Origin: an uncultured Verrucomicrobiota bacterium
GTDB taxonomy: Bacteria; Verrucomicrobiota; Kiritimatiellia; CAJWTS01
DNA length: 64,000 bases
Reading direction: 5' to 3'
Assembly (NCBI GenBank): GCA_913047795.1
Contig: CAJWTS010000012.1
Coordinates: 1-64,000, forward strand
The number at the start of each line of letters is the position of its first letter. Position 1 is the first letter of the stretch. Below are positions 1-30,698 of the stretch, piece after piece. The notes under the pieces were generated by a model. That model was not told where the DNA came from, made no database searches, and was given only the letters and a program-made list of their open reading frames with translations. A program made the position numbers and the translations under genes.

Positions 1-287
1 GCCGGCAGGAACTTTCGTTCACCGATCGACATCCCGTGCAACTCGCCGTCGCAGCGTTGACAACGACTATCATCGGCGGCCTTCGTAACGATGAACTCCG
101 CAGCGCAGGCGCGGGCCTGGCAGAAAACAATGTCGCGCCCGCGCCACGATCCAATCGATTCGGGCAGATTCGCCTGCAGGCCGGCGCTATCGTCCAGCCG
201 CAGGTCGCCCGCGACGGACAGGTACACGATCGTCGCCGCGACAAGGCCCAGGACAATCCCGAGTCGCCTCAGTGTGCCGGTTTCCAT
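1..287 (-). CDS. EpsI-like exosortase-associated protein (3' end beyond window)
   Basis: The frame reads from an ATG at 287 and runs off the left edge, so only the first 95 residues are visible. They begin METGTLRRLGIVLGL, one N-terminal membrane segment, followed by an ESIGSWRGRD stretch. EpsI/DUF3485 proteins are about 200 residues, start with one membrane helix and sit beside exosortases; a G-x-W motif early in the periplasmic part fits. The start overlaps the 3' end of the exosortase gene by 19 bases, suggesting translational coupling. The visible part has four cysteines, including CQARAC and CQRC, which could bind metal or form disulfides. The family call rests mainly on position and architecture. 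Confidence 0.6.
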   Translation of the reverse strand, partial: METGTLRRLGIVLGLVAATIVYLSVAGDLRLDDSAGLQANLPESIGSWRGRDIVFCQARACAAEFIVTKAADDSRCQRCDGELHGMSIGERKFLP

Positions 288-1189: not shown

Positions 1190-1240
1190 CGGCCCTTACA
1201 TCCGGTCGGCACGAGGAATGCGCCCGTTAGCCAGTTCCGG

Positions 1241-2101: not shown

Positions 2102-2172
2102 GAATCTAGCCTTTTCCCACACGAGGGCTGCATACAATATAGTCTTCTTTCCAATCTTCTAGCGATCTGAAT

Positions 2173-3880: not shown

Positions 3881-3882
3881 CG

Positions 3883-5049: not shown

Positions 5050-5065
5050 AACGCCCGCCGAGTCG

Positions 5066-6592: not shown

Positions 6593-6611
6593 CTAGTGGC
6601 GCTCCTTCCGG

Positions 6612-7835: not shown

Positions 7836-7850
7836 CTGAATTTCTCACAC

Positions 7851-9392: not shown

Positions 9393-9693
9393 GCCGCCTC
9401 CGACAACATGGCACGGTTCCCCGGGAAGTCATGCGTGGACATGATCATTGTGCTGGAACATTCGAGAGCTTCGATCGAGACTGCCTATTTGCTAACCGGA
9501 CCGCTAGTATAGCCAGCGCGGGAGGCATTGGAAACCGCTGAATACCGGCGCGAAGCGCAGCGGATGTTCGCGAACGCTCGAACGATCTTTGCGCAACGGA
9601 TCTCCATAACGAGCAACATGATCGACAGACTGAACCGCTGCCAAGATGTCGATCCGATACCTGCCCGTGTCCCGGTTGATCGAAACGAAGTTG
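9393..9693. other. Intergenic stretch with no recognisable gene
   Basis: About 300 bases separate the pyruvyl transferase stop from the flippase start. Open frames here on the minus strand run into or out of the neighbouring gene and have no domain-like sequence. The flippase ribosome-binding site lies at the left end. No convincing promoter, terminator or repeat was found. Confidence 0.5.
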
Positions 9694-10815
9694 TCATCTG
9701 ACCTGCGTGGCATCCCCCACAAGCGCAACGTAACGCTCAAACGTGCGGCAGCTGAGTTCATGCAGTCGATCCCGCTGCTCCGCCGCTCCGGCGACGACGC
9801 CTTCCAGTTGAGACTCGAGGTCGTCAACCGAGGCTTCCTTGACATAGCAGGTCGGCAATCCGATCTCGTCGACCATCAGCATCCTTGTGTCTACGCCCAC
9901 CGCGACGGAAGGAATTCCCATTCCGGCAAGGGCCACGCTGGCGTGCAGGCGGTTACACACGGCCGCACGTGCGTGGCGAACCAACGCAGCGTATTCGCCT
10001 GCGTGTCGCGGCCAGATCTTGGGCAATTCAATACCGAGATCATCGCACCATTTCCACTCCTCATGATTGTGGCATAGAAACACAACTGGATAGCGGGTCT
10101 GTAGTCGCTGGATGAGCTCGCGCATCGTGTCGCGCCACGCCACCCTCCCGATGGCCTGACCAAATTCATGATGGCCCGCGCCCGGCATATAGTTGCACAG
10201 GATGGGCCCGTCGGTCGCGGCAGCGGCGACCGTCTCGTTCCCCGCAGCCAACAGAGCCGCACAGGGCAACAGGTGACTCTCAAAGCCCATATCGATCGCA
10301 ACGCGGTGCGCCAGCGGATCGCGGAACGTGTTAAGGCGACAGGCTCCAAACAGTCGTGACAGGTATGCACGATCCCTGTCGTCTTGCAATGCTCGGTCCC
10401 GGCCTTCCCAGGCAAAGGATGCCCCAGACGCGATGTTCAGGATAGTCACCTCCTCGGAAACCCGATGAAGCCCGTGTGTCCACAACAGCTCAGCCCATTC
10501 CGCGCGGAAACATCCGTCCCACATGATGGGCGTCCCACAATAGATCCAGAGTGGCGTACGCTGGAAGACTCCATCATGTAGACCGGAGAATATCCGGCTC
10601 GCCATATTTCCGGCTCGAACCCGCCCCAGAGGAAGCGCGCCTACCCAGCGCACGGGGTGCCAATACGGATACGCACGCCACGGTCGATGCTTATCGATCA
10701 ACCTATACTGGCACGATTGGCGGGCGTAGACGGTCTCGAGCACTCGCTGCAACCCAACCCGGATCAGGTCGTCCCCGATGTTTGTCTCGACGGTTGTGAT
10801 CAGTCCGATGTCCAT
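9694..10815 (-). CDS. Polysaccharide pyruvyl transferase family protein
   Basis: A 373-residue protein of the PS_pyruv_trans family, whose members add ketal-linked pyruvate from phosphoenolpyruvate to glycan hydroxyls. It opens with MDIGLITTVETNIGDDLIRVGL, the N-terminal 'not-lonely/GDD' pattern of the family. It has CGTPIMWDG in the middle and a C-terminal CNRLHASVALAGMGIPSVAVGVD block, which is the family's R-x-H signature followed by a glycine-rich strand. Two ATGs are adjacent (10818 and 10815); the second is preferred because an AGGAG motif would sit too close to the first. It lies within the minus-strand exopolysaccharide operon. Confidence 0.85.
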   Translation of the reverse strand: MDIGLITTVETNIGDDLIRVGLQRVLETVYARQSCQYRLIDKHRPWRAYPYWHPVRWVGALPLGRVRAGNMASRIFSGLHDGVFQRTPLWIYCGTPIMWDGCFRAEWAELLWTHGLHRVSEEVTILNIASGASFAWEGRDRALQDDRDRAYLSRLFGACRLNTFRDPLAHRVAIDMGFESHLLPCAALLAAGNETVAAAATDGPILCNYMPGAGHHEFGQAIGRVAWRDTMRELIQRLQTRYPVVFLCHNHEEWKWCDDLGIELPKIWPRHAGEYAALVRHARAAVCNRLHASVALAGMGIPSVAVGVDTRMLMVDEIGLPTCYVKEASVDDLESQLEGVVAGAAEQRDRLHELSCRTFERYVALVGDATQVR

Positions 10816-10991
10816 CATTCTCCTGCGAAGAACGCCGTGGCATGCTGGTGGACGTTAGTTAGGGGCCGCAACCCACCTCGATGGCATCATCCACACGCGA
10901 CGGCAAAACTGTAGTCGTCAAAGGCCTTCTTCCACCAGTGATTCCAGTTGTCCCCGTAAACACTCGCAGACGGCCCAAATACTTGCAACGT

Positions 10992-11678
10992 TTACTCTTC
11001 GCCCGCAGTGCCGGCTCCGGCCAGCGCGTTCCAATTTTTCAAGTCCAGCCCTGCATCGGTGACGTCAATGTAATGCACAGGCGTTTCCGTCCAGGAACCC
11101 GTATTGATATATCGCACCCCGCCCGCAACGACATCTTCGGCAAAATGCGTGTGGCCGCAGGTAACCGCCTCGAAACCATGCTCCCGTGCATAGTCCGTGG
11201 CGGCGATGAGTACACTGCGACGCAGGTAGCGATAAAGCAGCGACCAGCGCTTGGCGTACTGTGCCACGTGAACCGGTTCGGCGCCGAGCCACATGCGGAA
11301 TCGATGCATGCACCTGAACGAACGCACGAACCACCGGTAGCGACTCATGACACTGTCGAAGTCATATCCGTGGTTGATATACAGTTGCTTGCCGATACGA
11401 AAGTCACGACAGAACTCAATCCGGCCGGCATCTTCCATCTGATACTCGTCGTCGTGGTTGCCGTACACCCATATCACCCGCCGCGAAAGCGACTCATCAC
11501 GCAATCGCTCAAGCAGACGTTGATGCGATTCCGGAAGATCGTGATGGACGAAATCGAGAATGTCCCCGTTCAATATCAGCGCAACACCGTCCGGCAATTC
11601 GTTCAGAAACTGTTCAAGAAGAGCGTCCTGGAAATGCTGTGACCCGAGGTGCACATCGCTGATCACGTACGCTCTCAT
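10992..11678 (-). CDS. Calcineurin-like metallophosphoesterase (LpxH-like)
   Basis: A 228-residue two-metal phosphoesterase. All family motifs are present: DVHLGS at 8-13, GDILDF, GNHDDE, and GHTHF near the C-terminus. Its size and motif spacing resemble UDP-2,3-diacylglucosamine diphosphatase LpxH/LpxG-type enzymes, but its place in an EPS operon leaves a role in polysaccharide or lipid-carrier metabolism possible. The start ATG at 11678 shares an ATGA overlap with the stop of the upstream O-antigen ligase gene. The frame continues upstream of this ATG, but that sequence lies inside the preceding gene. The exact substrate cannot be assigned. Confidence 0.82.
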   Translation of the reverse strand: MRAYVISDVHLGSQHFQDALLEQFLNELPDGVALILNGDILDFVHHDLPESHQRLLERLRDESLSRRVIWVYGNHDDEYQMEDAGRIEFCRDFRIGKQLYINHGYDFDSVMSRYRWFVRSFRCMHRFRMWLGAEPVHVAQYAKRWSLLYRYLRRSVLIAATDYAREHGFEAVTCGHTHFAEDVVAGGVRYINTGSWTETPVHYIDVTDAGLDLKNWNALAGAGTAGEE

Positions 11679-13045
11679 GCCGGGTCTTCGGAATCTATGC
11701 GCCGTTCGAGATCCGTGCCACGGCGCACAATGCCGGCCACGCCAATTCCCAGGATCGCGCCAAACATCCACCCATTCGCCGGGATCTGAAGATTAAAGTC
11801 ACCGACCGAGTGGATCGTCATGGCGCAGATCGCAAACAGCGCACCCAACACCCATTGAAACCGTCTGGACGGTGGTCCGGTGGACGGGGCTTCGCGAAAA
11901 TAGCCAAGCCCGAGCAGCCCCAGGACGCCGGATGCGGCCACGCCGAACAGCACGAAACCGACAATGCCGTACTCCTCAAGCAACTGGACCCAATCGCTGT
12001 GAACCTTGTAGGAGAAAAGGTGAAAGTTCGGTCGTGTCGGCCAACGGCCGGCCGCCCTATCCCCATCCGGTGACGGACCCGTGCGAAGCCAATAATGTTC
12101 GTGCATGCCCGCGCCGACGCCAAAAACCGGCTTCTGCTTCCAGGCGCGGACCGCGGACATGATCATGTTGACACGATGACTATGCTCCAGTTCGGTGTAA
12201 GGGTAACGCTTGAATCGCTCGACGTAAGGGTGTTCCGATTTCAAGAATGCCGCCACGCCGCCCACCAATGCCACGAGCAACACGACGCGCATCGACCAGC
12301 GCAGGATCCGCGGCCATTGCACGAGTCCGATCATGATCGCGAACAAAATCATACCCGCAATCGTGATGCCACCCCCGCGCGACTTGCTCCAGATGACACA
12401 CCATACGGCGACGGCACAGAGCGCCAGGGCGGCAAGTCGCGGGACCGTGCGCGTGGAACGCGCGAACGCGACTCCCAGACCAAGCGCCAGCGCGAACTCC
12501 ATTGCACCGGCGAAATGGTCGGGGCAAAAGTAGCTTCCCGAGGCACGATCGTCCCGCCAGTACTGAATGAATCCATCACGCCAAAGCACGACGCGACTGC
12601 CGTTCAGGGCGTGATTCACCAGCCCGTAAACGCCTTGAACGGCGAGATTAAGAAGGAGGCCAAGATGCAACGCACGAACCTGGCGACCGGAGAACCCGTA
12701 TACGATCTGAACACCGATCAAGAACGGCAGCAAAATAAGCAGAAAACTGCGTTCCGCACTCATGTAGACCTCTGTTTGCAGAAAACGGATAAGTGCGTAG
12801 AGAAGGAACGGGACGCATCCCGCGATCAGAATCCACATCAGGCGGGCATCCGCGGGCGATTCCCTCAGCAACTCGTGGCGGCCGTAACAAAGGCGCAGAC
12901 AGAAAAAAGCGAACCCGAGAAAGATGCAGGCCGCGAAAGGCCAAAACCACCAGAAGGCCCAGGCCCCGAAAATCCAGGGCCCGCCAAAGATTGCTATGGC
13001 CGTAAAGATAAACGAGAACTGTTGCAGCTGGCGGTCGCCGCTCAT
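11675..13045 (-). CDS. O-antigen ligase/polymerase family membrane protein (second copy)
   Basis: A 456-residue polytopic membrane protein. The Wzy_C-type features are a KSRGGG motif in the middle, followed by further helices and a large periplasmic loop with GVGAGMHEHYW and a trailing VHSDWVQLLEEYGIVGF segment, which is characteristic of the O-antigen ligase superfamily. It therefore probably uses undecaprenyl-diphosphate-linked glycans in the periplasm. It overlaps rfbA by four bases (ATGA) upstream and the metallophosphoesterase by four bases downstream, so the three genes are almost certainly co-translated. It is the clearer of the two ligase-type proteins here. Confidence 0.9.
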   Translation of the reverse strand: MSGDRQLQQFSFIFTAIAIFGGPWIFGAWAFWWFWPFAACIFLGFAFFCLRLCYGRHELLRESPADARLMWILIAGCVPFLLYALIRFLQTEVYMSAERSFLLILLPFLIGVQIVYGFSGRQVRALHLGLLLNLAVQGVYGLVNHALNGSRVVLWRDGFIQYWRDDRASGSYFCPDHFAGAMEFALALGLGVAFARSTRTVPRLAALALCAVAVWCVIWSKSRGGGITIAGMILFAIMIGLVQWPRILRWSMRVVLLVALVGGVAAFLKSEHPYVERFKRYPYTELEHSHRVNMIMSAVRAWKQKPVFGVGAGMHEHYWLRTGPSPDGDRAAGRWPTRPNFHLFSYKVHSDWVQLLEEYGIVGFVLFGVAASGVLGLLGLGYFREAPSTGPPSRRFQWVLGALFAICAMTIHSVGDFNLQIPANGWMFGAILGIGVAGIVRRGTDLERRIDSEDPA

Positions 13046-13932
13046 CCCGTATCGTCCGCCAGGTTCATCAGGTACTGTCGGTACGCATTATCTCCGAGGC
13101 CCTCGGCGCTGCGGATCAGCCCGTCGCGATCGATAAAGCCCATGTTATGGGCAACTTCCTCAATGCAACCAATGTTCAAGCCCTGGCGGCTTTCGACGGT
13201 GGCCACAAAGTTCGCCGCTTCCAGCAGGCTCTGCGGCGTTCCGGTGTCGAGCCAGGCGATACCCCGCCCAAGGAGTTCCACATAGAGCTCGTCCCGCTCG
13301 AGGTAAGCGTTATTGAGATCGGTGATCTCGAGCTCGCCGCGCGCGGATGGCGTCAGCCCGCGTGTCAACTGCACGACCTGTTCGTCATAACAATACAGAC
13401 CGGGCACGGCGTAGCGGCTCTTCGGCTGGGCAGGCTTCTCCTCGATGCTGATCACCCGTCCGTCCGAGCCGAACTCCACGACCCCGTATCGTTCGGGGTC
13501 CTGTACAGGATAGCCGAATACCGTCGCGCCATCCGCACGCGCCAGCGCCTTGCGAAAGAAACTCATGTCGCCGTAGAAAAGGTTGTCGCCCAGGATCAAG
13601 CACACGGGCGAACCATCCAGGAAATCCGCTCCCAACAGAAATGCCTGCGCAATCCCCTTTGGCTCGGGTTGTGCCACGTACGAGAAGCGAACGCCAATGC
13701 GCTCCCCGTCGCCCAACAACTCTTCGAACAACGGGAGGTCCTGCGGCGTTGAAATGATCATTATGTCCCGAATGCCACCCAACATCAGGATCGAGAGCGG
13801 GTAATAGACCATCGGCTTATCGTAGACCGGCAACAGCTGCTTGCTCATCAGGCGCGTCATGGGATACAGCCGCGTCCCTGCGCCGCCGGCCAGCACGATG
13901 CCCTTGCGACCTTTATTCGATGTGGCACTCAT
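13042..13932 (-). CDS. rfbA: Glucose-1-phosphate thymidylyltransferase
   Basis: A 296-residue nucleotidyltransferase that makes dTDP-glucose from glucose-1-phosphate and dTTP, the first step toward dTDP-rhamnose and related sugars. The signature GIVLAGGAGTRLYPMT is near residues 11-26, followed by KQLLPVYDKPM, LGDNLFYG, YGVVEF and EEKPAQPKS; all are typical of RmlA/RfbA. The ATG at 13932 gives the usual family length; the longer upstream frame enters the divergent promoter region. rfbB, rfbC and rfbD are not in the window, so the rest of the pathway lies elsewhere. Likely first gene of the minus-strand operon running down to about 9694. Confidence 0.95.
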   Translation of the reverse strand: MSATSNKGRKGIVLAGGAGTRLYPMTRLMSKQLLPVYDKPMVYYPLSILMLGGIRDIMIISTPQDLPLFEELLGDGERIGVRFSYVAQPEPKGIAQAFLLGADFLDGSPVCLILGDNLFYGDMSFFRKALARADGATVFGYPVQDPERYGVVEFGSDGRVISIEEKPAQPKSRYAVPGLYCYDEQVVQLTRGLTPSARGELEITDLNNAYLERDELYVELLGRGIAWLDTGTPQSLLEAANFVATVESRQGLNIGCIEEVAHNMGFIDRDGLIRSAEGLGDNAYRQYLMNLADDTG

Positions 13933-13984
13933 AAGCGCCGCACGGTAGGTTTTTCTATCCCGAATTGGCAAGCGAAAACGGGTT

Positions 13985-14013
13985 TTGACAGTCGCTGGAT
14001 CGCGGAATACCGT
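13985..14013 (+). promoter_or_regulatory. Candidate sigma70-type promoter for the epimerase gene
   Basis: A perfect TTGACA at 13985-13990 is followed after 17 bases by TACCGT at 14008-14013, a weak -10. It lies 22 bases before the ATG at 14035, in the short divergent gap between rfbA and the epimerase gene. The -35 and spacing are good; the -10 matches the consensus at three of six positions. Confidence 0.4.
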
Positions 14014-14034
14014 GCAGGTCCACGTATTCAGTTT

Positions 14035-14985
14035 ATGCGAATTCTTGTTACAGGCGGGGCTGGGTTCATCGGAAGCCATCTAACCGAACGCCTCCTGGCG
14101 CGCGGGGACGAGGTTGTCGTTTTCGATGACTTCAACGACTACTACGATCCGGCCTTGAAACGGGCCAACCTGGCCGATGTAAAAAACGCGGGAACGCTTC
14201 GTATCCTCGAAGGCGACATCCGCGACGCCGCAACGGTGGCCGATGCCTTTGCGAATACGGCCTTCGACGTCGTCGTGCACCTCGCCGCACGCGCCGGCGT
14301 CCGCCCCAGTCTCGAAGACCCGCTGCTCTACGAGGAAGTCAATTGCCTCGGAACCCTCCGGATACTGGAGGAGATGCGTCGCCAGGGTTTGCGGCGACTG
14401 GTTTTTGCATCGTCCTCGAGCGTCTACGGAAACTCCGCGAACCCGCCTTTCACGGAGGACGAGGTCATCAACCGCCCGATCAGCCCGTATGCCGCAACCA
14501 AGGCCGCAGGTGAACTGCTATGCTACAACTACTATCACCTCTACCAAATCTCCGTCACCGCTCTTCGATTCTTTACGGTGTACGGCGCACGCCAGCGGCC
14601 GGACATGGCGATCCGCAAGTTCACGACCATGATCGATCAGGGCGAGCCCATCCCGTTCTACGGCGATGGCTCGACGGAACGGGACTACACGTACTACACC
14701 GACATCGTCGAGGGCGTCGTCGCATCGATCGATCGCGACCTGGGCTACGAGATCGTTAACCTGGGCGAATCGCAGACGACGTCGCTATCGCAGCTGGTCG
14801 GCCTGATCGAGGAAAACCTGGGGAAACAGGCCGTGCGCAACCCACTGCCGATGCAACCGGGAGACGTCGATCGAACCTACGCCGACGTCTCGAAGGCACG
14901 ACGCCTCCTCGACTACAACCCGACAACGCCGATCGCGGACGGAATCCGGGCGTTCGTCGCCTGGCACCTGGCACAGACCCGCTAG
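14035..14985 (+). CDS. NAD-dependent epimerase, UDP-glucuronate 4-epimerase-like
   Basis: A 316-residue extended short-chain dehydrogenase/reductase. It begins MRILVTGGAGFIGSHL (NAD-binding TGGAGFIG) and continues with DDFNDYYDP, a sequence typical of UDP-glucuronate 4-epimerases. The catalytic Ser-Tyr-Lys set is visible as SSSSVYG and SPYAATK (Y-x3-K). The expected product is UDP-galacturonate or a related sugar for the adjacent polysaccharide locus. It is transcribed against the rest of the locus. Its TAG stop abuts the antiterminator gene's stop with no intervening base. Confidence 0.9.
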   Translation: MRILVTGGAGFIGSHLTERLLARGDEVVVFDDFNDYYDPALKRANLADVKNAGTLRILEGDIRDAATVADAFANTAFDVVVHLAARAGVRPSLEDPLLYEEVNCLGTLRILEEMRRQGLRRLVFASSSSVYGNSANPPFTEDEVINRPISPYAATKAAGELLCYNYYHLYQISVTALRFFTVYGARQRPDMAIRKFTTMIDQGEPIPFYGDGSTERDYTYYTDIVEGVVASIDRDLGYEIVNLGESQTTSLSQLVGLIEENLGKQAVRNPLPMQPGDVDRTYADVSKARRLLDYNPTTPIADGIRAFVAWHLAQTR

Positions 14986-15468
14986 CTAGTCGATCGGCTC
15001 GAGCTCGTGCATGGCGACGTCCAGCGCAACGCCCTGCCCAATCATGTCGACGTTGAGAATGACGCGCGTTCCGCCCTTGACCTTCTGTACGCGACCCTCG
15101 ATGCCCTGAAAGGACCCGCTGGTAATCCGCACCTGGCGTCCCTCCGTGAACGCCTCGCAGGCGCCCAGCGTCTCGTCCACCTCGAGCGCCCGGCGCACCT
15201 GGCCAAGCTCGTCGAGAAACGTTGACTGCGCCTGGACCTCGATCACGCGCACCACGTGGTTACTCTTGAGCAGGTCGACGCGGCGCTCCTGATCATAGGC
15301 CGTGAACACATACCCGGGAAAGACCGGCTTCAAGACGTGGACCTTGCGGCGTTGATAAACCTTCGTCTCGGAACGCAGCGGCAGGTAGTGCGGGAAGTCG
15401 TGCACCTTACAGTACTCCGCCAGTTTCTTTTCGCAACGCGGTCGTACATGTATGACGTGCCAGTCCAC
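14986..15468 (-). CDS. NusG-like transcription antiterminator (UpxY/RfaH type)
   Basis: A 160-residue NusG paralogue. The N-terminal NGN domain starts WHVIHVRPRCEKKLAEYC and has FPGYVFTAYD. The C-terminal KOW region is RQVRITSGSFQGIEGRV. Specialised NusG paralogues of the UpxY/LoaP/RfaH group load on RNA polymerase at long polysaccharide operons and suppress termination. The start is GTG at 15468: an in-frame stop lies four codons upstream and the NGN fold begins directly after it. No good Shine-Dalgarno is visible. Transcription proceeds toward the minus-strand polysaccharide genes through the oppositely oriented epimerase gene, so it may be the leader gene of the whole locus. Confidence 0.9.
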   Translation of the reverse strand: MDWHVIHVRPRCEKKLAEYCKVHDFPHYLPLRSETKVYQRRKVHVLKPVFPGYVFTAYDQERRVDLLKSNHVVRVIEVQAQSTFLDELGQVRRALEVDETLGACEAFTEGRQVRITSGSFQGIEGRVQKVKGGTRVILNVDMIGQGVALDVAMHELEPID

Positions 15469-18668: not shown

Positions 18669-19313
18669 CTAAAGCAGAGTCGGCACGTCCTGTGGCGCCG
18701 CGCAAAGATGCGCTGCTCCATGTGCGCGCAATTCCTGTTCCGAGCGAAATCCCCAGAGCGCGCCAACCGGGGTCATGCCCGCCGCAACAGCGGTTCGCAT
18801 ATCGGTGTCCGTGTCCCCGATGTAGAGAATCTCGGCCGGGCATAAGCCCCAGTCACGCGCGATCTCGAGTGCCCCCCTCGGGTCCGGTTTGAGCGGCGTT
18901 CCCTCGCGCGCACCGCGCACGATCGCGAAGGTCCCGGCCTCGAAATACCGGTCCACCACCCGCTGCGTGGCTTCATCGGGCTTATTGGAGAGCACGGCCA
19001 TTGGGATCTGCCTGGCCTCCAGGTCGGCCAGCAGGTTCGTTATGCCGTCGTACGGCCGTGTCTTGTCGAAACAACGGCGACCATATTCGACCCGCATCTC
19101 CTCCATGCAGACGGCAACATGACCCTCCGCGTCTTCCGGAAGCGCACGCCGCACAAGTGGCTCTACCCCGTCGCCGACGAATTGCTTATAGGCCGCCACG
19201 GGATGCAGAGGGAAACCATTACGCTCCAGAACGGCGTTCATCGCGTCCGCGAGATCGTCGATCGTGTCCAGCAAGGTTCCGTCGAGATCAAAGATAACAG
19301 CGCTGTGCATCAT
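18669..19313 (-). CDS. HAD-family phosphatase, phosphoglycolate phosphatase-like
   Basis: A 214-residue HAD hydrolase of the Gph/HAD-IA type. Motif I is FDLDGTLLDT near the N-terminus, motif II is LSNKPD, motif III lysine is in LKPDP and motif IV is IGDTDTDM. A helical cap sits between motifs I and II, as in phosphoglycolate phosphatase, and the protein ends with the typical WGFRSEQEL segment. This makes Gph or a related small-sugar-phosphate phosphatase likely. Two ATGs are adjacent; 19313 is given, 19310 is equivalent. It could dephosphorylate 2-phosphoglycolate or a sugar phosphate. Confidence 0.87.
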   Translation of the reverse strand: MMHSAVIFDLDGTLLDTIDDLADAMNAVLERNGFPLHPVAAYKQFVGDGVEPLVRRALPEDAEGHVAVCMEEMRVEYGRRCFDKTRPYDGITNLLADLEARQIPMAVLSNKPDEATQRVVDRYFEAGTFAIVRGAREGTPLKPDPRGALEIARDWGLCPAEILYIGDTDTDMRTAVAAGMTPVGALWGFRSEQELRAHGAAHLCAAPQDVPTLL

Positions 19314-19482
19314 AAGCGGTACGCGGACAGGCATCGCGGCGTCTATCGCCGCCGCACCCGGTCGATCGGATGCGCTCTTGCCGGCGGGCGCACCCGCTGG
19401 AATGCGGCGCAGAAGTTAATAAACCAGCATATCCGCAGGGCCAGTCGTCTACGCCCGAGTATGCTGATGCATGCACCCGTCG

Positions 19483-20106
19483 TCAATGATTCCACGCATC
19501 ACCCACCACGATCGCGAGGACTTCGTCAAGTCGATCGATCGTGTAGTCCGGGTGCGTGGTCGTCATCGCCTGGCCGTTTGTAAGAAAGGCGGAAAGACAA
19601 CCCGCCCGGCGCGCGATCTCAACGTCGAAGTCATAATCTCCAACACAGAGGATCGACGGCACGGAAACCCTTAGCATCGAGGCCAATCGAAAAATCCCCT
19701 CCGGATCCGGCTTCGGCCGTATGTCATCGTCGCGCGCGATCATGGCCACAAAGTGCTCCGGCCCGAGGCGCGGAAAATTTTCGAGGGACCGGACAACCGC
19801 GCGCCGCATGTTGCGTGTCAGAATGGCGAGTGGCAGGCCGTGTTCGACCAAAGCCAGTACGAGATCCTCCGCCCCAACGTTCGGCTCGGCGCGTTCGGCG
19901 GCCTCCATTTCGTAGCGATCGAGCACGGATTCCGGGTCCGCGCGATCGCCCGGCAGGTTATGCACGTATTCCAGGATCGGCGTCCCTACGGGACATCCAA
20001 GCTCGCGGCGGATACCGGCAAAATCGATCTCGCCGGGACGTGTCAGCGTGCCGTCGAAGTCAAAGACGACCGCCGCGACGCAGGCTGGCTGATGGTCAGG
20101 CCTCAC
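19483..20106 (-). CDS. HAD-family hydrolase
   Basis: A second, distinct HAD phosphatase of about 207 residues: VVFDFDGTLTRP (motif I), LAILTRNM (motif II), RPKPDPE (motif III) and CVGDYDFDVE (motif IV). The cap is short and helical. It overlaps the end of the GH95 gene: GTG at 20106 gives an 11-base overlap, and an upstream GTG at 20127 is the alternative. No ATG start exists in this frame near motif I. The overlap implies co-translation with the GH95 gene, so it may act on a phosphorylated product of that pathway; no specific substrate is visible. Confidence 0.8.
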   Translation of the reverse strand: MRPDHQPACVAAVVFDFDGTLTRPGEIDFAGIRRELGCPVGTPILEYVHNLPGDRADPESVLDRYEMEAAERAEPNVGAEDLVLALVEHGLPLAILTRNMRRAVVRSLENFPRLGPEHFVAMIARDDDIRPKPDPEGIFRLASMLRVSVPSILCVGDYDFDVEIARRAGCLSAFLTNGQAMTTTHPDYTIDRLDEVLAIVVGDAWNH

Positions 20107-22315
20107 GTATACACGCCTGTGCCCCACGTGGAATTCGAATCGAGATCACCCGTCCGGCGCGCCGTGAAAGCTTTTCTCCACAGCTCACGCGAGCCCCGCC
20201 CGGCCATGGATTTGCGATCTTGAACGTACCCCCGGTTTCGCACTCTACAACGATCGAGACCGTCTGCCCCTTCTCACGAACCGCGCTGACCAGGAAGGCG
20301 CCCTCCGTACGCATGCGGCTGAAGGAGCAGTTGCGCCAGCGCCAGGGAACACCGGCAAAGATGTGGTTCACGCCCCGACGGGTGTGTAGAAACATCTCCT
20401 GAATCGCCGCAACGGATCCCATCGCGCCGTCGACCTGCATCACATCGATCAACGTCTCCCGATTGGGCGGCCGCGCACCGCGGCCCACTAACGAAAACCC
20501 CGATGCCCATGCGTCGTGCACCGTGCCGCCGCCTTCGTTGGTGAAAAAGCGATCGAACGCTTCGAGATAAAATTCGGCCGCCTCCCCATTCCCAAGCCGG
20601 CAATGCAGCGCCGACGCCCAGGAGAGGCACCATCCACTCCAACGTCCGGGTCCGTGCCGAATCCAATCTGCGACGCTTTCGTCCACGACAGCGGCCCAGT
20701 CGGGATCGTTCGGATCGATCACGTCGAAAGGCGTAATCGCGCCCAGGTGAGAGTGATGCCGGTGACTCTCCTCGAGCCGCAGACCGTCCCACAGCCCGAT
20801 GGATGCCGGGCGATCGCCGCCGGGACCGTCAACCAGGGCCGCCTTGGGCAGTTTCGCCATGATGCGTGCCCACACCGGCCGCGGTTTACGACGCAGGATC
20901 CGTGAGGCATCCGTACAGGCTTCGGCCAGCGCGTGAACACAGGCCAACTGGAAACTCGCATTCTTACCCCATGCATTCATCTCGGCCCCGCGATACTCCG
21001 GCGACACGCTGACAGGTAAACACAACCGGCTCCCATCGCGCTCCAGCATCTCTTCGTACACGCGCATGGCGCTGACCATGAAGGGGTAAGCGCGCTTGAG
21101 AAACGCTCGATCGTCAGCGTAGCGGTAGTAGCGGTACATCATCAACGCCACCCAGGCCGTACAGCCGTGGTCCACGCTGCCGGTCCAGAACCCGCCCATG
21201 CACATGCACCGGTCATCGACGGCGTGTGGCAACATCATGCCGTCATCGATACCCAGGAAAACATGCGCGTTTTTGCGCAGCTCAGACTCCCAGGAGAAGA
21301 TCAGATCGAAAAGCGGCAAGAGGTGCTCCAGGCGATTGCCGTGATAGGCCGGCTGGTAGCACATCTGTACGTTGATGTTGAAGTGATAGTCGCTGGACCA
21401 CGGCGGCATGCGATATTCTTCGATCCACGGGCCTTGCAGCGTCGCCGGGACCCCCGCCGGATTCGTAAACCCGGCGAACTTGTACATGCCATAGCGGTAC
21501 AGAAACGCCAGGCGTTCATTGGGTATCACAAGATCCGGTACGTCACGCCAGTAGCGCGTCCACCACTTCCGGTTCGCTCGCTCGACTGTTTTCGCGCGAT
21601 CCGATGCTACCTCGCAAGCCGTCGCCGAGGCCGCGGCGCGGGCAGATTTCTCATGCTCGCCACGCTCGACCCCAATCACGACACCCGCCGCCGTGCGCCG
21701 GCAGGCAACGCAGACTGCGGGATCGGCGGGCAGGGCCTGGGTCCACCCAAACACGCCGGACGATCGAAATTTTCGTGGCGCTGCGAACGAAATCGATCGC
21801 AGGTATTCCTCCAGGAAACTCCAGGCCGTCACCGTCCGGATCGGGGTATTTGCGAGTGATCGCGGTAGGGACACCGTCACCGCGTTCGACTCCATCGCAA
21901 GCACGATGCGGACGCGATAGCGATGCTTTCCACGCACGGCATGGATAACGGCCGTGCCGTCGCCCGTTTCCAGCACCCCGCGAGTTAATTCCACGCCCGG
22001 ACCAAGGTCGATATCAATCCGACCCAGCGGCAGCACGCTCGGCCGCTCAGGCTCCCCCTTCACCCCGTCGCCGGTCTCAAAGAGTTGTCGCAAGGACGTT
22101 TCATCGCCACGTTCCAGGCAACGGCGGATACTGGCGTACGACATCCCTTCGCGCCATGCCATGCCGCCGCGGTGATCCCAGAGATCCGCCCGCCCCAGCG
22201 TGATGCGCAGCCAGCGCCCCTCGCCCCATATCATCGCGCCCAGCGTGCCGTTGCCCTGCAGAATCCCGGTATGCGTGCGCGGCAGGGGGAAATCCCATTC
22301 GTATGCCGTCTTCAT
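20096..22315 (-). CDS. Glycoside hydrolase family 95-like protein
   Basis: A 739-residue protein of the GH95 clan of inverting alpha-L-fucosidases/galactosidases. An N-terminal beta-sandwich has LQGNGTLGAMIWGEG. The (alpha/alpha)6 barrel contains FNINVQM (the two asparagines that in GH95 activate water), SVSPEYRG (candidate general acid Glu), HRHHSHLG and MQVDGAMG (family pattern QIDGNFG, here with N to A). No signal peptide is present, unlike most secreted GH95 enzymes, so it may be cytoplasmic. The ATG at 22315 has an AAGGAG motif nine bases upstream. It is followed by an overlapping HAD phosphatase gene. Confidence 0.85.
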   Translation of the reverse strand: MKTAYEWDFPLPRTHTGILQGNGTLGAMIWGEGRWLRITLGRADLWDHRGGMAWREGMSYASIRRCLERGDETSLRQLFETGDGVKGEPERPSVLPLGRIDIDLGPGVELTRGVLETGDGTAVIHAVRGKHRYRVRIVLAMESNAVTVSLPRSLANTPIRTVTAWSFLEEYLRSISFAAPRKFRSSGVFGWTQALPADPAVCVACRRTAAGVVIGVERGEHEKSARAAASATACEVASDRAKTVERANRKWWTRYWRDVPDLVIPNERLAFLYRYGMYKFAGFTNPAGVPATLQGPWIEEYRMPPWSSDYHFNINVQMCYQPAYHGNRLEHLLPLFDLIFSWESELRKNAHVFLGIDDGMMLPHAVDDRCMCMGGFWTGSVDHGCTAWVALMMYRYYRYADDRAFLKRAYPFMVSAMRVYEEMLERDGSRLCLPVSVSPEYRGAEMNAWGKNASFQLACVHALAEACTDASRILRRKPRPVWARIMAKLPKAALVDGPGGDRPASIGLWDGLRLEESHRHHSHLGAITPFDVIDPNDPDWAAVVDESVADWIRHGPGRWSGWCLSWASALHCRLGNGEAAEFYLEAFDRFFTNEGGGTVHDAWASGFSLVGRGARPPNRETLIDVMQVDGAMGSVAAIQEMFLHTRRGVNHIFAGVPWRWRNCSFSRMRTEGAFLVSAVREKGQTVSIVVECETGGTFKIANPWPGGARVSCGEKLSRRAGRVISIRIPRGAQACIREA

Positions 22316-22475
22316 CGTCAACGTCTCCTTACGGATCTGATTAAGGCAGTAGAAAAGCGGTCGTCGGAACAAATGTCGAGTTCCTTTGCGGGAGGGTTAT
22401 TCTGAAGGTTTGCACACGCCGGAAGAAAACGATATGGATGCGGTACAGGAGAAGCTCAAGGAGATTGCGGTTTAG

Positions 22476-24668: not shown

Positions 24669-25907
24669 ATGATCGGCATAACTTCCAGACTTCAGCTCAT
24701 TATCGCGCTCGGCTTGCTTTCCGTCGCGTGTTGTCCGTCGCAGGCCGATGACTGGACTTTCTTTCGCGGCCCCCATCTGAACGGTACGTCTGACGAAGCG
24801 GACTGGTCGGCCATCTATCCCGAGACGGGGCCCCGCATCGCATGGGAAAAAGCGGTCGGTAACGGCGCGTCCAGCGTCGTGGTCGCCGGCAACCGTGTCG
24901 TCACCATGGGCAACCGCGCCGGCAAAGACGTTGTCGCCTGCCTCAGCGCGGACGACGGCGAAGTCCTGTGGGAATTTGCATATGACTGCGCCTTCGAGGC
25001 CCGCATGTTCGACGGAGGCACGGCTTCAACGCCGACGATTGACGGAGATCGCGTCTACACGCTCAGCTACCTCGGGCATATCTTCTGCCTCGGCCTCGCC
25101 GATGGAAAAGAAATATGGAAGGCGCACGCCAATGACTCCGGTGGCTCTCCGCCTCGCTGGAAATATGCCGGATCGCCCCTCGTCGATGGCGATCTTGTCA
25201 TCTTCGACATCGGCGGCAAGGACGCCTCGACATTGGCTCTCGACAGGAAGACCGGCAAGCGGGCCTGGGCCGCCGGCACCGATCCGCCGGGTTACGCCAG
25301 CCCGATTCCCTACACCTATAATGGTCAACGCGCCGTGCTGGTTTTCAAGTCGCGGGCGATGATCAGTGTTGAAGCCGCCTCGGGTAAAGAACTGTGGCGC
25401 CTGCCCTGGCGATCCGCATACGACGTGAACGCGTCGACTCCGATTGTGCTCGACGACCGTGTGCTAATCTCGTCGGGCTACCCCGGCGGACGGGCCGCCA
25501 TGTTTCAGCTTACGGATGGCGATCCACGGCGTCTCTGGCGCAACGATGACATCAAAACCAAGATGAGCAGCCTGGCCGTTCACGCCGGGCATGCCTACGG
25601 AATATCTGAACGCGGCGGACGACTCCTCTGCATCCGTCTCGAAACCGGCAAGAACGTGTGGGAGCAAAAGGGGTTCGGTCGCTTCGGAACATTGATGATT
25701 GCCGGGGACAAGCTCGTGATTCTCACTGACAGTGGCGAACTGGTTATCGCGGACGCTTCCTCAAAGGCCTACAGCGAACATGCGCGTGCAAGTGTACTGC
25801 GCGGCACATGCTGGGTGAACCCGGTCCTCGCGAACGGTCGCATCTACTGTCGCAACAACATCGGCACGCTGCGCTGCGTCGACGTACGTTCCGCCGCCGG
25901 GGAGTAG
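24669..25907 (+). CDS. Secreted PQQ-like beta-propeller protein
   Basis: A 412-residue exported protein with a signal peptide ending near SQA/DD (26). DWTFFRGPHLNGTS follows directly, a start common in PVC-group PQQ-like propellers. The rest is a run of beta-propeller repeats with the W-like pattern 'G-x-x-x-W' (ADDGEVLWEF, LADGKEIWKA, DRKTGKRAWAA, ASGKELWRLPW, LETGKNVWEQ), related to BamB and quinoprotein alcohol dehydrogenases. There is no obvious catalytic quinoprotein signature, so it may be a binding or scaffold protein in the periplasm. It opens a plus-strand gene run, with the sugar-isomerase-type genes starting 35 bases downstream. Confidence 0.87.
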   Translation: MIGITSRLQLIIALGLLSVACCPSQADDWTFFRGPHLNGTSDEADWSAIYPETGPRIAWEKAVGNGASSVVVAGNRVVTMGNRAGKDVVACLSADDGEVLWEFAYDCAFEARMFDGGTASTPTIDGDRVYTLSYLGHIFCLGLADGKEIWKAHANDSGGSPPRWKYAGSPLVDGDLVIFDIGGKDASTLALDRKTGKRAWAAGTDPPGYASPIPYTYNGQRAVLVFKSRAMISVEAASGKELWRLPWRSAYDVNASTPIVLDDRVLISSGYPGGRAAMFQLTDGDPRRLWRNDDIKTKMSSLAVHAGHAYGISERGGRLLCIRLETGKNVWEQKGFGRFGTLMIAGDKLVILTDSGELVIADASSKAYSEHARASVLRGTCWVNPVLANGRIYCRNNIGTLRCVDVRSAAGE

Positions 25908-25942: not shown

Positions 25943-26827
25943 ATGAAGCTCGGAATTCTTCTCAACGCGTTCTACACAAGTATTCCGAACCCGCACGTAC
26001 GCGGGCGGCCGCTTGACCCTGCAGATCCGAACCTCAACCTCGCTGACCAGTTGACCGTGGCGCAGGAGATCGGCATCAAGAACGTCGAGATCCAGGCGCC
26101 GCTACAACACGCCACGCCGAAACAGATCCAGGCCCTCAAGCAGGCCCTCGATGCCGCGGATGTCCGCGCAGGCTCCGTGCACGCACCCTTCCCCGTCTAT
26201 GACGAGGGTGCGATGGACGATATTTCTTCACCCGACGAAGCAGTACGCGATGCCGCGGTCGCGACGATCGCGGCCGCCATCGACCTTGTGGCGCCGCTGC
26301 AACCGGACGCGCTGGTCTTGCACCCCTGTGGCGCGCGAATGGGCGACGGCCTTCAACTGGATCAAGACGAGACCCGACTACAGGCACGAACGGAGGCCTG
26401 TGTGGAGAGCCTCGTTCGGTTGAGCGAACACAGCCAGGCACAGGCGATCTCCCTGGCGCTCGAAAACACCCTGCCCGGCGACCTTGAGCAACCCGATGAC
26501 CTGATCACGATCGTGGATCGCGTCGCCCGTCCGAACGTCGGGCTCTGCCTCGATACCGGACACGCCATGATCGCAGGCGTCGATCCGGGCGAAACCGTGC
26601 ACCGGATGGGTTCGCGCCTGCGCCACATCCACGCCCACGACAATCACGGAGTCGTCGACGAACATCTGTTCCCGTTTCTCGGAGACGTGCCCTGGCGCTC
26701 TCTTTTCGACGCCCTGCACGCGGTCGCGTTCGAGGGAATTTTCATGCTCGAGGTCGCATCGATCAATGCCGCAGCAAATCGAGACCAACTTGCACAGCTT
26801 CGCGAGATGGGTTCGTTCATGGAATGA
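25943..26827 (+). CDS. Sugar phosphate isomerase/epimerase (TIM barrel)
   Basis: A 294-residue xylose-isomerase-like TIM barrel (AP_endonuc_2). Probable metal ligands are visible along the strands: Glu in ISLALENTLPG, Asp and His in GLCLDTGHAMI, His in RHIHAHDNHG and Glu near the C-terminus in FMLEVASI. The family isomerises or epimerises free sugars, keto-sugars or polyols and also includes dehydratases; the substrate is not readable. Its stop overlaps the start of the next gene (HAD) as ATGA, so the two are translationally coupled. First gene of a four-gene cassette. Confidence 0.85.
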   Translation: MKLGILLNAFYTSIPNPHVRGRPLDPADPNLNLADQLTVAQEIGIKNVEIQAPLQHATPKQIQALKQALDAADVRAGSVHAPFPVYDEGAMDDISSPDEAVRDAAVATIAAAIDLVAPLQPDALVLHPCGARMGDGLQLDQDETRLQARTEACVESLVRLSEHSQAQAISLALENTLPGDLEQPDDLITIVDRVARPNVGLCLDTGHAMIAGVDPGETVHRMGSRLRHIHAHDNHGVVDEHLFPFLGDVPWRSLFDALHAVAFEGIFMLEVASINAAANRDQLAQLREMGSFME

Positions 26828-27579
26828 CACACGTGCGCCGGCACCTTTTTTTCGATTTTGGCAACACCCTTGTCGACAGTGACGCTGCGGCGGGCGCGGC
26901 GCGACGTGCTGTTACGGTGCGTGCCGCATCAGGGAGCGGGATCGAGCCAACGGCTAATGAGCTGCATACCCGGTCGGAGCACGCCTGGGTCGCAGCCGCG
27001 GAGAAAGTCGACCGCGACTACTATGCTCCGCTCGGCGACGGCCCGATTGACTCCCAACTCGCCGCCGAGCTCGTCATCGCGGCATACAGCCGTCACCTGC
27101 TTGCCGCGTTCGGATCTGAGCTCACCTCGTCGGCCGTCCGCACCCTATCCGACGCCTACCTGCAGGAACTGGCACTCAGCACAGCGCTTCTCCCGGGCGT
27201 CGGCGAGGCGCTGGCCGAACTCTCGTCGGCCGGATTCAGAATGGGAATCATCTCGGACAATATGGTCGAGTACGTCGAACCCCCACTGCGCCACCTGGGG
27301 CTTGCCGATCACTTTGAGCCCGTGATAATTTCAGGACGAGAAGGGCCGGGCGTCATTAAGCCCAATCCCGAAATCTTCCGGCGCGCCCTGCGGGCCGCCA
27401 ACTGTGAGGCATCGAACGCGGTCATGATCGGAGACAACCTTGAATGCGACATCGCGGGTGCGCGGACCTGCGGCATGCGGGCCGTCTGGTTCAACCGAGC
27501 AGCAGACATTCAGGCCTCCGATCAGGAGCCGTACGCGATTGTGGACGATCTACGCGAACTTCCCGATCTCTTAATCTGA
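26824..27579 (+). CDS. HAD-family hydrolase with DxGxT motif
   Basis: A 251-residue HAD-IA hydrolase. Motif I is FFDFGNTLVD: the nucleophile Asp is present, but the second, general-acid Asp of phosphatases (DxDGT) is replaced by Gly, as in the DLGGT subgroup. Motif II is IISDN, motif III lysine is in VIKPNPEIF and motif IV is MIGDNLECDI. A large helical cap separates motifs I and II. It starts inside the stop of the upstream isomerase (ATGA) and ends 10 bases before a second TIM-barrel gene. It probably removes phosphate from an intermediate of this cassette. Confidence 0.85.
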   Translation: MTHVRRHLFFDFGNTLVDSDAAAGAARRAVTVRAASGSGIEPTANELHTRSEHAWVAAAEKVDRDYYAPLGDGPIDSQLAAELVIAAYSRHLLAAFGSELTSSAVRTLSDAYLQELALSTALLPGVGEALAELSSAGFRMGIISDNMVEYVEPPLRHLGLADHFEPVIISGREGPGVIKPNPEIFRRALRAANCEASNAVMIGDNLECDIAGARTCGMRAVWFNRAADIQASDQEPYAIVDDLRELPDLLI

Positions 27580-27589
27580 GCAACGCCGC

Positions 27590-28462
27590 ATGACATCCGA
27601 TCAATTTGGCTTCAATGCGTTCTGGTGGGAAACCCTGAGCACGAAAGCGGAGATCGTTGCGGTGACCGAAGAACTTGCCGGCATGGGCTATCGGTACATC
27701 GAGTGGAAGGATACCAGCTTTGCGCCGGACCTGGCCCGCGGCCTGCGTCTCGCCGTGGACGCGGGTCGAGACGCGGGACTGCGCGTCAGCAATCTCGTCA
27801 TGTTGCGCGACCCGGCGGGAGACGACGCCGACCGGGCCGTGGCGGACTTGAAGGCCGCGATCGATGCCGCAGCGGATTGCGAGATCGGGATCCTGAATAC
27901 CAACACGGGATGGCCACCGCCGCCCGGCGCAGCGGACGGCGAGCAATGGTGGATGCCACCCGCGCCGAAAACCGGTCTCGCATGGGATCGTCTCTTCACC
28001 TCGATGGAGGCAATCCTGAAACATGCCGAAGCACGCGGGGTGGTCATTGCAATCGAATCCGTGGTGGGTAGCATGTGTCACGACTTTCACAGCACAGAGA
28101 CCCTTCTACGGCGTTTCCAGAGCGATGCACTGGCGTTGACCTTCGACCCCTCCCACTTTTTTCTGTCGCGTGACGACATCCCGTGGATCATTCGGCACTG
28201 GGGCGCATTGATTCGCCACGTACACGTCAAGGACGCGGTCGGATCGCCGGGCGTGCCGGGCCGGGATTTCCTCTTTCCTCTACTTGGCGAAGGAGGAATC
28301 GACTTCAGCTCCATGTTCGCTGCGCTTGAGGACATCGGCTACGCCGGCGCGTTGTCCTGTGAATTCGAGTCGTTCCGCTACATGCACGATGTGCTGCAGA
28401 ACGACTACGCAGCGGCGGCGCGCATGACGATGGACACATTACAGAAGATATGGAAGACGTGA
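27590..28462 (+). CDS. Sugar phosphate isomerase/epimerase (second TIM barrel)
   Basis: A 290-residue TIM barrel of the same superfamily as the gene 1.6 kb upstream but clearly different in sequence. Candidate ligands: Glu in VVIAIESVVG, Asp and His in LTFDPSHFFLS, His in IRHVHVKDAVG and Glu in LSCEFESFRYM. An H-V-K-D motif after the third metal site and the tryptophan-rich NTGWPPPPG and EQWWMPPAP segments distinguish it. It overlaps the following SDR gene by 13 bases. Two divergent isomerase-like barrels in one short operon suggest consecutive steps on one sugar. Confidence 0.85.
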   Translation: MTSDQFGFNAFWWETLSTKAEIVAVTEELAGMGYRYIEWKDTSFAPDLARGLRLAVDAGRDAGLRVSNLVMLRDPAGDDADRAVADLKAAIDAAADCEIGILNTNTGWPPPPGAADGEQWWMPPAPKTGLAWDRLFTSMEAILKHAEARGVVIAIESVVGSMCHDFHSTETLLRRFQSDALALTFDPSHFFLSRDDIPWIIRHWGALIRHVHVKDAVGSPGVPGRDFLFPLLGEGGIDFSSMFAALEDIGYAGALSCEFESFRYMHDVLQNDYAAAARMTMDTLQKIWKT

Positions 28463-29331
28463 GGCGCGTTCTGATAACGGGCGCCGGCGGCGGCGTTGGC
28501 CATTTCCTTATCGACGCGCTCCGGGCGGATTACGATATCGTCGCCTTTGATCTCGTCCCGCCGCGTGACGAAACCGTCGCGTTCATACAGGGCGATGTAA
28601 CGGACCGCGACGCCGTATTCGCGGCGAGCACCGGGGTCGACGTGATCGTTCACCTGGCGGCCGTGCTCCGCATGCGCGACGGGGCAGACGGCCTGCCCTA
28701 TGTCACCGATCCCCAGGAACATGATCGTGTTAACCTCGGCGGAACGCGCCATGTGCTCGAATCCGCAGCGGCCAACCATGTGGGACGTGTCGTCTTCGCC
28801 GGAAGCGATTCGGCTTACGGGTTCGTCTTCGCCGAGGAATCTTTTCAACCCCGGCAATTGCCGATCGATGAGGAACACCCATTGCAGGCGATGGACCCCT
28901 ACGGCCGGTCGAAAGCCGCGGGGGAAGACGAATGCCGCGTCTTCAGCGCCGAACACGATCTAAGCATCATCGCGTTGCGCTGTTGCCTGATTGCGTTTCC
29001 CGACTTCTACGACGGACTCGACCGCACCCGTGCGCTTGGGTTTCTCAATCACAAGCGAAACTGGGGTTATGTTGACGTGCGCGATGTCTGTTCGGCCTAC
29101 CGTCTCGCGATTGAGGCCGAGATGTCCGGCTTCCAAACGTACCTGATTTCCGCACACGACACCTACGCCGACCACCCCACGCACGATCTGCTTACGAACG
29201 AATATTCGGACGTGCCGCTTTCCGCCGGATTTCCCGCCACGCCCTATGCATCGCTTTTCACGACCGCGCGAGCGGAGCGTGAGCTTGGCTTCCAACCGCG
29301 ATTCTCGTGCCGGTCAGCACCGACAGGTTGA
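28450..29331 (+). CDS. NAD-dependent epimerase/dehydratase family protein (SDR)
   Basis: A 293-residue extended SDR. NAD-binding RVLITGAGGGVGHFL opens the protein; FIQGDVTDRD, VIVHLAAVLRM, FAGSDSAYG (catalytic Ser) and DPYGRSKAAGE (catalytic Tyr-x3-Lys) follow. The acidic residue ending the second strand favours NAD over NADP. The late part (RNWGYVDVRDVCSAYRLA, FQTYLISAHDTYAD) resembles the SDR group that includes uronate dehydrogenases, so it may oxidise a sugar or sugar acid rather than epimerise. It overlaps the second TIM-barrel gene by 13 bases, completing the cassette. Confidence 0.85.
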   Translation: MEDVRRVLITGAGGGVGHFLIDALRADYDIVAFDLVPPRDETVAFIQGDVTDRDAVFAASTGVDVIVHLAAVLRMRDGADGLPYVTDPQEHDRVNLGGTRHVLESAAANHVGRVVFAGSDSAYGFVFAEESFQPRQLPIDEEHPLQAMDPYGRSKAAGEDECRVFSAEHDLSIIALRCCLIAFPDFYDGLDRTRALGFLNHKRNWGYVDVRDVCSAYRLAIEAEMSGFQTYLISAHDTYADHPTHDLLTNEYSDVPLSAGFPATPYASLFTTARAERELGFQPRFSCRSAPTG

Positions 29332-29400: not shown

Positions 29401-29721
29401 ATGACTGAAGATCAACGCCACAACAGACTCGAAGACCACCTGCGCCTGATCGAATCGCGCCTCGCGGAGATCAAAATACTGCTGTCATTGCTCGTCGTGC
29501 TGGTCCTCGTCGCGCTATTCATTCCCACCGAAAAGATGAGAGCGGCCGGGGCCACCGTGTTCTTTTGCGTACTGGCCTGCGCCCTGATGTATCTTGTCGC
29601 CGTGCTCGTTCAAAAATGGATGACTTCCCGGCGGGGGCCGAGTGCGGACGAATTGCTTTCCCGGGATCTCGTGCGCGACGATGACTCCGCGGACGATCCC
29701 GACGCGCCGGGATCCCCATGA
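29401..29721 (+). CDS. Small membrane protein of unknown function
   Basis: A 106-residue protein with a charged N-terminal helix (DHLRLIESRLAEIK), two membrane segments (ILLSLLVVLVLVALFI and GATVFFCVLACALMYLVAVLV) and an acidic, proline-containing tail (RDDDSADDPDAPGSP). The ATG at 29401 is chosen because GGAGA lies six bases upstream; an upstream TTG in frame is less likely. It overlaps the SrkA-like kinase gene by four bases and is co-translated with it. No family recognised. Confidence 0.65.
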   Translation: MTEDQRHNRLEDHLRLIESRLAEIKILLSLLVVLVLVALFIPTEKMRAAGATVFFCVLACALMYLVAVLVQKWMTSRRGPSADELLSRDLVRDDDSADDPDAPGSP

Positions 29722-30698
29722 GCGAGACCACCTTGTTCGAAGACCTGACGTATGACCGCGTCATAGATCTCGCGGAGCAGGCGCTCGGCGAACGTTGCAC
29801 CAACCGTTGTCGGCCACTCAACAGCTACATCAATCGTGTATACGAAATCGAGCTCGAGTCCGGCGAGATGGTCGTCGCGAAATTCTTTCGTCCGGGCCGC
29901 TGGTCGCGCGAGGCCCTGATCGACGAGCAGATTTTTCTATTCGCCCTGCAGGATGCGGATGTGCCCGTCATTCCGCCGCTGGGCAACAGCCCGCAGGAAG
30001 CTTTGCACGACGCGAACGGCATGTCGTATGCAATTTATCCCAAGAAAGGCGGCCGAATCTGCGACGAACCGACGGAGGAGGAGTGGAAACAACTCGGGCG
30101 GCTCATTGGCCGGGCCCATCAGGTTGGCGCCGCCGGAGAGGCCCCTCATCGCATCACGATGCACCCGCGAGAATCAACGGAATATCAGTTGCAATACATC
30201 ATGGAGTCCGGCGAAGTGGATGCGCAATGGGAGCATCACTACGAAGACGTCGCTGATCAAATCCTGGACCGAATTGATCCGTATTTCGAGGATGTCGGCA
30301 TGATACGCATCCACGGGGACCTGCATCCTCAGAACGTGATCTATCGCCCGGACGAAGCGTTCTTCCTGATTGATTTTGACGACATGGCCATGGGACCGGC
30401 CGTGCAGGACATCTGGATGTTACTTCCCGGTCGTGTCGTCGACGCCCGCCGTGAGTTGAATCTTTTCCTCAGCGGATACGAACTCTTTCGCGAATTCGAG
30501 GATTCAGAGCTCAAACTCATCGAACCCCTGCGTGCGATGCGATTCATTCATTACACTGCGTGGTGCGTGCACCAGGCCGAGGATGGCGGGGCCGAACGGC
30601 TGGCAACGGACTGGGGCACGCCCGGCTACTGGCGTCAATCTGTCGAGGAGTTGCGAACGCAGCTAACAGAAATCGATGATGACGGCGGCGACTCCTGA
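29718..30698 (+). CDS. srkA: Stress response Ser/Thr kinase SrkA-like
   Basis: A 326-residue kinase of the APH/SrkA (YihE/RdoA) family. Visible elements are NSYINRVYEIELESGEMVVAKFFRPGRW (substrate/nucleotide strands, in the family's YENRVY position), the catalytic loop IRIHGDLHPQNVIY (HGD), the Mg-binding LIDFDDMAMGPAVQDIWMLL (D-F-D) and a C-terminal helical region. E. coli SrkA is a Ser/Thr kinase tied to envelope stress and cell survival. Its start overlaps the upstream small membrane protein gene by four bases. It is convergent with slyX, 15 bases apart. Confidence 0.88.
   Translation: MSETTLFEDLTYDRVIDLAEQALGERCTNRCRPLNSYINRVYEIELESGEMVVAKFFRPGRWSREALIDEQIFLFALQDADVPVIPPLGNSPQEALHDANGMSYAIYPKKGGRICDEPTEEEWKQLGRLIGRAHQVGAAGEAPHRITMHPRESTEYQLQYIMESGEVDAQWEHHYEDVADQILDRIDPYFEDVGMIRIHGDLHPQNVIYRPDEAFFLIDFDDMAMGPAVQDIWMLLPGRVVDARRELNLFLSGYELFREFEDSELKLIEPLRAMRFIHYTAWCVHQAEDGGAERLATDWGTPGYWRQSVEELRTQLTEIDDDGGDS

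Follow-up and report, generated by a model that had tools for sequence, protein, structure and literature searches.

Two divergent PF01261 TIM barrels, a HAD hydrolase and an extended SDR in an operon-like cassette of an uncultured Verrucomicrobiota bacterium

Analysis of a 64,000-nucleotide stretch of DNA from an uncultured Verrucomicrobiota bacterium, hereafter the window, revealed a cassette of four genes on the + strand (positions 25943-29331), encoding two TIM barrel proteins of the PF01261 family, a HAD hydrolase and an extended SDR. The cassette is a new arrangement of known enzyme kinds, real but unconserved in the genomes searched. As a tentative reading, we favour a lineage-restricted operon acting on a carbohydrate or cyclitol that is phosphorylated or phosphodiester-linked, via a phosphodiesterase, a HAD phosphatase, an epimerase or isomerase and a dehydrogenase.

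The gene for barrel 1 (25943-26827, 294 aa; PF01261, 3.8e-36) shares four bases (ATGA, 26824-26827) with that for the HAD hydrolase (26824-27579, 251 aa; PF00702, 3.3e-25), which is followed after a 10-base gap by the gene for barrel 2 (27590-28462, 290 aa; PF01261, 4e-33); the latter overlaps the SDR gene (28450-29331, 293 aa; PF01370, 3.1e-28) by 13 bases (28450-28462). ORF, Pfam and NCBIfam analyses agree with the coordinates, families and overlaps of 4 and 13 bases given in a preliminary description of this DNA, which had left the 10-base gap unmentioned. Its portrayal of the group as one tightly packed unit of overlapping, same-strand genes also stands, as does the term divergent for the two barrels, which share 24% identity over 194 aa. 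The two overlaps and the 10-base junction suggest that the cassette forms one operon-like unit and is co-transcribed. No clear ribosome-binding site was present in the sequences upstream of the cassette genes and no promoter candidate above chance was found upstream, which counts against the favoured reading. In codon usage and G+C content the four genes do not stand out from the rest of the window; recent transfer is thus not visible by composition, which is still compatible with an old transfer.

Physical linkage has to be weighed against the abundance of these families, as all four are common and the genome encodes 19 PF01261 barrels. When 19 barrels were placed at random, assuming 2900 genes, 21% of the trials contained a pair within two gene positions; it is therefore the overlaps, not the pairing of the barrels, that argue for a single transcript. 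The same figures, together with the abundance of barrels, HADs and SDRs in the lineage and two more HAD-type genes in the window (18669-20127), favour a chance or local pile-up, in which co-transcribed but independent accessory enzymes would each repair or salvage a different metabolite. We regard this reading, with no single pathway, as almost as likely as the phosphodiesterase-phosphatase-epimerase-dehydrogenase model, although the two overlapping junctions and the 10-base junction point to co-transcription and relatives of barrel 2 tend to sit near dehydrogenases (see below).

A gene for a secreted-type PQQ/BamB-like propeller (24669..25907, +; PF13360, 7.7e-35) ends 35 bases upstream of the barrel 1 gene and is a possible first gene of the cassette transcript. 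Its product carries an N-terminal signal-like stretch, judged by eye, in agreement with the secreted beta-propeller (PQQ_2/BamB-type) previously placed ahead of the cassette, and scores far under the cut-off of NCBIfam TIGR03300. Downstream of the SDR gene lie a small membrane-protein-like ORF and a gene for a protein kinase of the SrkA type (29718-30698; NF008738, 311 bits against a cut-off of 194). A sugar kinase and a transporter are absent from the group, as had been noted before, and from its vicinity, which speaks against the favoured model. Elsewhere in the window, the - strand of 18669-22372 carries a GH95-type (alpha-L-fucosidase family) gene whose 3' end is overlapped by a HAD gene, together with another HAD/Gph-like ORF at 18669-19334. 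Positions 269-15468 hold a polysaccharide-type cluster with glycosyltransferase-like ORFs, a sugar epimerase-like ORF and a NusG/RfaH-like ORF, as read from translations only.

None of the four cassette proteins reached a curated NCBIfam equivalog cut-off, and therefore no named function was assigned to any of them. The best NCBIfam match of barrel 1 is the cobamide-remodelling phosphodiesterase CbiR (NF041277), with 87.9 bits where 105 would be needed, followed by a second match at 51.5 bits; in a genome-wide CbiR search it scored 87.6 bits and was the sole strong CbiR-like match. The best PDB match is MJ1311 (3wqo, 2e-15), whose entry name gives no function, followed by D-psicose 3-epimerase (5e-7). 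Both barrels were compared with characterised or annotated E. coli K-12 proteins, namely Nfo, UlaE, Hyi, YgbM, YcjR and FrlC. We take the zinc ligands of endonuclease IV (Nfo) to be H69, H109, E145, D179, H182, H216, D229, H231 and E261, the letters of which were confirmed against the E. coli Nfo sequence. In a global alignment barrel 1 matches all nine (H80, H127, E174, D204, H207, H230, D239, H241 and E270), despite low overall identity to Nfo and MJ1311. Seven of these are stable across alignment methods, whereas H80 and E270, the equivalents of H69 and E261, were found by globalpair and displaced by genafpair; an independent alignment with MJ1311, which keeps the same residues as barrel 1 at the Nfo ligand positions, backs both. 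Two of the three relatives of barrel 1 have Gln at the H69 position. Among the reference barrels, UlaE, Hyi, YgbM and YcjR possess neither the DxH pair nor an H109 equivalent, and FrlC has the DxH pair but no equivalents of H109 and H182.

Given the nine Nfo ligands and the best matches to MJ1311 and CbiR, barrel 1 resembles, at the level of sequence, the phosphodiesterase side of the PF01261 superfamily. It scored well under the cut-offs of the deoxyribonuclease IV models NF002198 and NF002196 (30.7 against 244 and 22.8 against 333 bits), and the cassette neighbours do not suggest the DNA-repair role of Nfo. The isomerisation step previously proposed for barrel 1 is thus unsupported. In a superfamily tree, a check called for in the preliminary description for both barrels, barrel 2 fell with its relatives in a supported clade and barrel 1 was left unplaced, at an open node and with a long Nfo branch.

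These results bear on two other readings. A linear sugar pathway, with an isomerase or epimerase step for each barrel, removal of phosphate by the HAD enzyme and oxidation by the SDR, is in keeping with the operon-like unit, the membership of both barrels in PF01261 and the numerous sugar epimerases and isomerases that they match weakly; the extra endonuclease IV His/Asp ligands of barrel 1, its proximity to MJ1311 and CbiR rather than to epimerases, and a gene order that is not conserved make it unlikely. CbiR shares with barrel 1 the superfamily and conserved metal-binding His, Asp and Glu residues, and being the best NCBIfam match it raises the reading of barrel 1 as CbiR and of the cassette as cobamide salvage. 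The homologues from which the CbiR clade was defined had cobamide genes as neighbours (PMC7733943), whereas none of the four cassette genes is a cobamide gene. With barrel 1 below the curated cut-off and no CobS in the assembly (93.5% complete), cobamide remodelling was rejected, and we consider this reading very improbable.

The HAD hydrolase belongs to a TIGR02253/YjjG-like subfamily, with scores under the cut-offs. Motifs II-IV are present, and motif I reads DFGNT, without the usual second Asp, which renders a role as phosphatase less certain. In E. coli YihX, which carries the annotation of a glucose-1-phosphate phosphatase, motif I reads DLGNV, so the missing second Asp does not imply an inactive enzyme. 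The dephosphorylation step suggested earlier is therefore uncertain.

Barrel 2 represents a rare PF01261 subfamily whose closest members start with QFGFNAFWWE. Together with five relatives it keeps E156, D186, H189, H212 and E258, plus K214-D215 after the His pair; E156, D186, H212 and E258 are invariant in all six aligned sequences and correspond to the E, D, H and E ligands of the ketose 3-epimerase type. Equivalents of Nfo H69, H109, D229 and H231 are missing, leaving only the epimerase-type E/D/H/H/E set. The barrel 2 clade lies apart from the E. coli reference barrels, in a tree built without the 3-epimerases of the PDB. An AlphaFold model of barrel 2 (pLDDT 72, pTM 0.78) matched ketose 3-epimerases, UlaE, Art22, the hydratase AtHYD and YcjR about equally (TM ~0.6), and the fold search therefore singles out no function. 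Scores against NF051856, NF041099 and NF007360 (20.8 against 300, 35.5 against 300 and 21.7 against 305 bits) are far under the equivalog cut-offs. It is reasonable, from sequence and predicted fold, to regard barrel 2 as a putative sugar isomerase, epimerase or hydratase, and here the ligand set, sequence and fold agree with the isomerisation proposed before.

The SDR is of the extended type, in the NAD-dependent epimerase/dehydratase family, and resembles uronate dehydrogenases and NDP-sugar epimerases. Its nucleotide-binding motif (TGAGGGVG at position 10) and catalytic residues (S119, Y151 and K155; S...YGRSK) are intact, in line with its first designation as an SDR oxidoreductase. A single-sequence structure model of it reached a pLDDT of 31.

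A cross-genome search for the four-gene order, set beforehand as a test, found it in no relative searched. The genomes included one of the same family, the genus being otherwise unrepresented, and in the phylum searches the best six or seven candidates were scored per genome. Barrel 2 had no match besides itself in 97 relatives or, at E<=1e-15, in 388 genomes of the phylum. A single-sequence scan of GTDB contigs yielded matches in a Phycisphaeraceae MAG (L015, 46% identity) and an Actinomycetota MAG (L016, 39-40%) as well as a third, fragmentary one, and three more relatives (35-36%) came from searching with a profile in the class of L015. These five loci (35-46% identity) have nothing but the barrel in common with the cassette; a different dehydrogenase is usually encoded nearby, and neither a HAD nor a barrel 1 gene lies beside the barrel at any of them. 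The neighbours at L033 include a transketolase gene and three genes for oxidoreductases, namely one of the Gfo/Idh type, a classical SDR, and an extended SDR that lies two genes from the barrel and has 25% identity to the cassette SDR; at L032 a classical SDR gene adjoins. Such dehydrogenase neighbours in carbohydrate-type operons speak for the favoured model. Barrel 1 had three partial relatives (31-37%) among the 97 genomes, the other three cassette genes being absent alongside. Weak relatives of the HAD enzyme and the SDR occurred in 8 and 24 other genomes, respectively, of the 388-genome phylum sample, and those examined had no counted cassette-gene neighbour within about 1.5 kb. The sole cross-match, at L065, was not counted as synteny, because it is a weak match to barrel 1 in an ORF partly overlapping an SDR-like ORF. 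Functional linkage of the four genes therefore rests on one genome, and the chance pile-up gains from the fact that no pair of cassette genes recurs elsewhere, except at L033, where a distant relative of barrel 2 lies close to an extended SDR, though a different one.

Several of these loci have features of their own. URO-D-family (PF01208) genes adjoin a barrel 1 relative (L036, 1610-2629) and a barrel 2 relative (L016, 1-492), a pairing that may point to a methyltransferase-linked pathway. In L016 the barrel 2 relative is immediately followed by a transposase-like ORF (1532-3091; translation judged by eye), which suggests mobility of that locus. Besides the barrel 2 relative, the L015 locus (5438-12532) contains two further ORFs that resemble a barrel and a propeller, a classical SDR and a protein of 1164 aa that matched no Pfam family. 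On a Salipiger plasmid (L013), a distant relative of barrel 2 shares an operon with a TPP enzyme, an NAD(P)-dependent oxidoreductase, a TRAP transporter, a semialdehyde dehydrogenase and a dihydroxy-acid dehydratase.

The preliminary description had recognised no described pathway with this gene set, and comparison with known systems likewise found no named pathway that fits. The E. coli ycjQRSTU genes, annotated as encoding glucoside 3-dehydrogenases, the 3-dehydro-guloside 4-epimerase YcjR, a kojibiose phosphorylase and a beta-phosphoglucomutase, resemble the cassette in that one operon brings together an epimerase of PF01261, oxidoreductases of the NAD type and an enzyme with the HAD fold. 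The beta-phosphoglucomutase has the HAD fold, and the glucoside/guloside 3-dehydrogenases are of the Gfo/Idh/MocA type. The ycj system differs in having these dehydrogenases in place of an extended SDR, in its phosphorylase and transporter genes and in its single barrel. The threonate/erythronate pathway (DenD or LtnD, OtnI, OtnK and OtnC) also combines a dehydrogenase with a TIM barrel isomerase; it was rejected at 30 bits for the SDR and 23 bits for barrel 2, each against a cut-off of 325, and neither the kinase OtnK nor OtnC (decarboxylase/aldolase) has a counterpart in the four-gene group. Inositol catabolism was excluded with the myo-inosose dehydratase IolE (TIGR04379, cut-off 290), to which barrels 1 and 2 scored 44.1 and 45.3 bits, and the 5-keto-gluconate, hydroxypyruvate, psicose and fructoselysine pathways by scores far under the cut-offs. 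The D-tagatose, L-ribulose and D-allulose 3-epimerases share fold and ligand set with barrel 2 at ~20% identity. The six-gene ebo operon likewise encodes a TIM barrel similar to xylose isomerase, as well as an enzyme of the phosphoesterase type, whereas its prenyl transferase, sugar phosphate cyclase, EboA and EboB have no counterparts in the cassette (PMC5133447). A literature search on the gene set, Art22, AtHYD and MJ1311 returned nothing usable.

In the favoured model, barrel 1 would use a three-metal centre of the endonuclease IV/CbiR kind to cleave a phosphodiester bond, after which the HAD enzyme would take off the remaining phosphate; barrel 2, with its single metal site, would then epimerise or isomerise the keto-sugar so released, and the SDR would oxidise or reduce the product with NAD(P). 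Each of these reactions, as well as the substrate, the order of the steps and the membership of all four enzymes in a single pathway, is what we infer from the families and conserved residues described above. The order first put forward, namely isomerise, dephosphorylate, isomerise and oxidise, is only partly right, because barrel 1 has the metal site of a phosphodiester-cutting enzyme; the assignments of barrel 2 and the SDR are supported and that of the HAD enzyme is uncertain.

It is improbable, in our estimate, that the cassette is a new route in which a three-metal phosphodiesterase of the MJ1311 side, acting on neither DNA nor cobamide, feeds a HAD phosphatase, an epimerase of a new subfamily and an SDR to release and convert a phosphodiester-linked sugar. 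At present, the cassette is one more small enzyme operon of an uncultured lineage. If the favoured model is true, MJ1311-like proteins, in which the endonuclease IV metal site is retained, would gain a genomic context through barrel 1, and barrel 2 would define a new subfamily of epimerases or isomerases.
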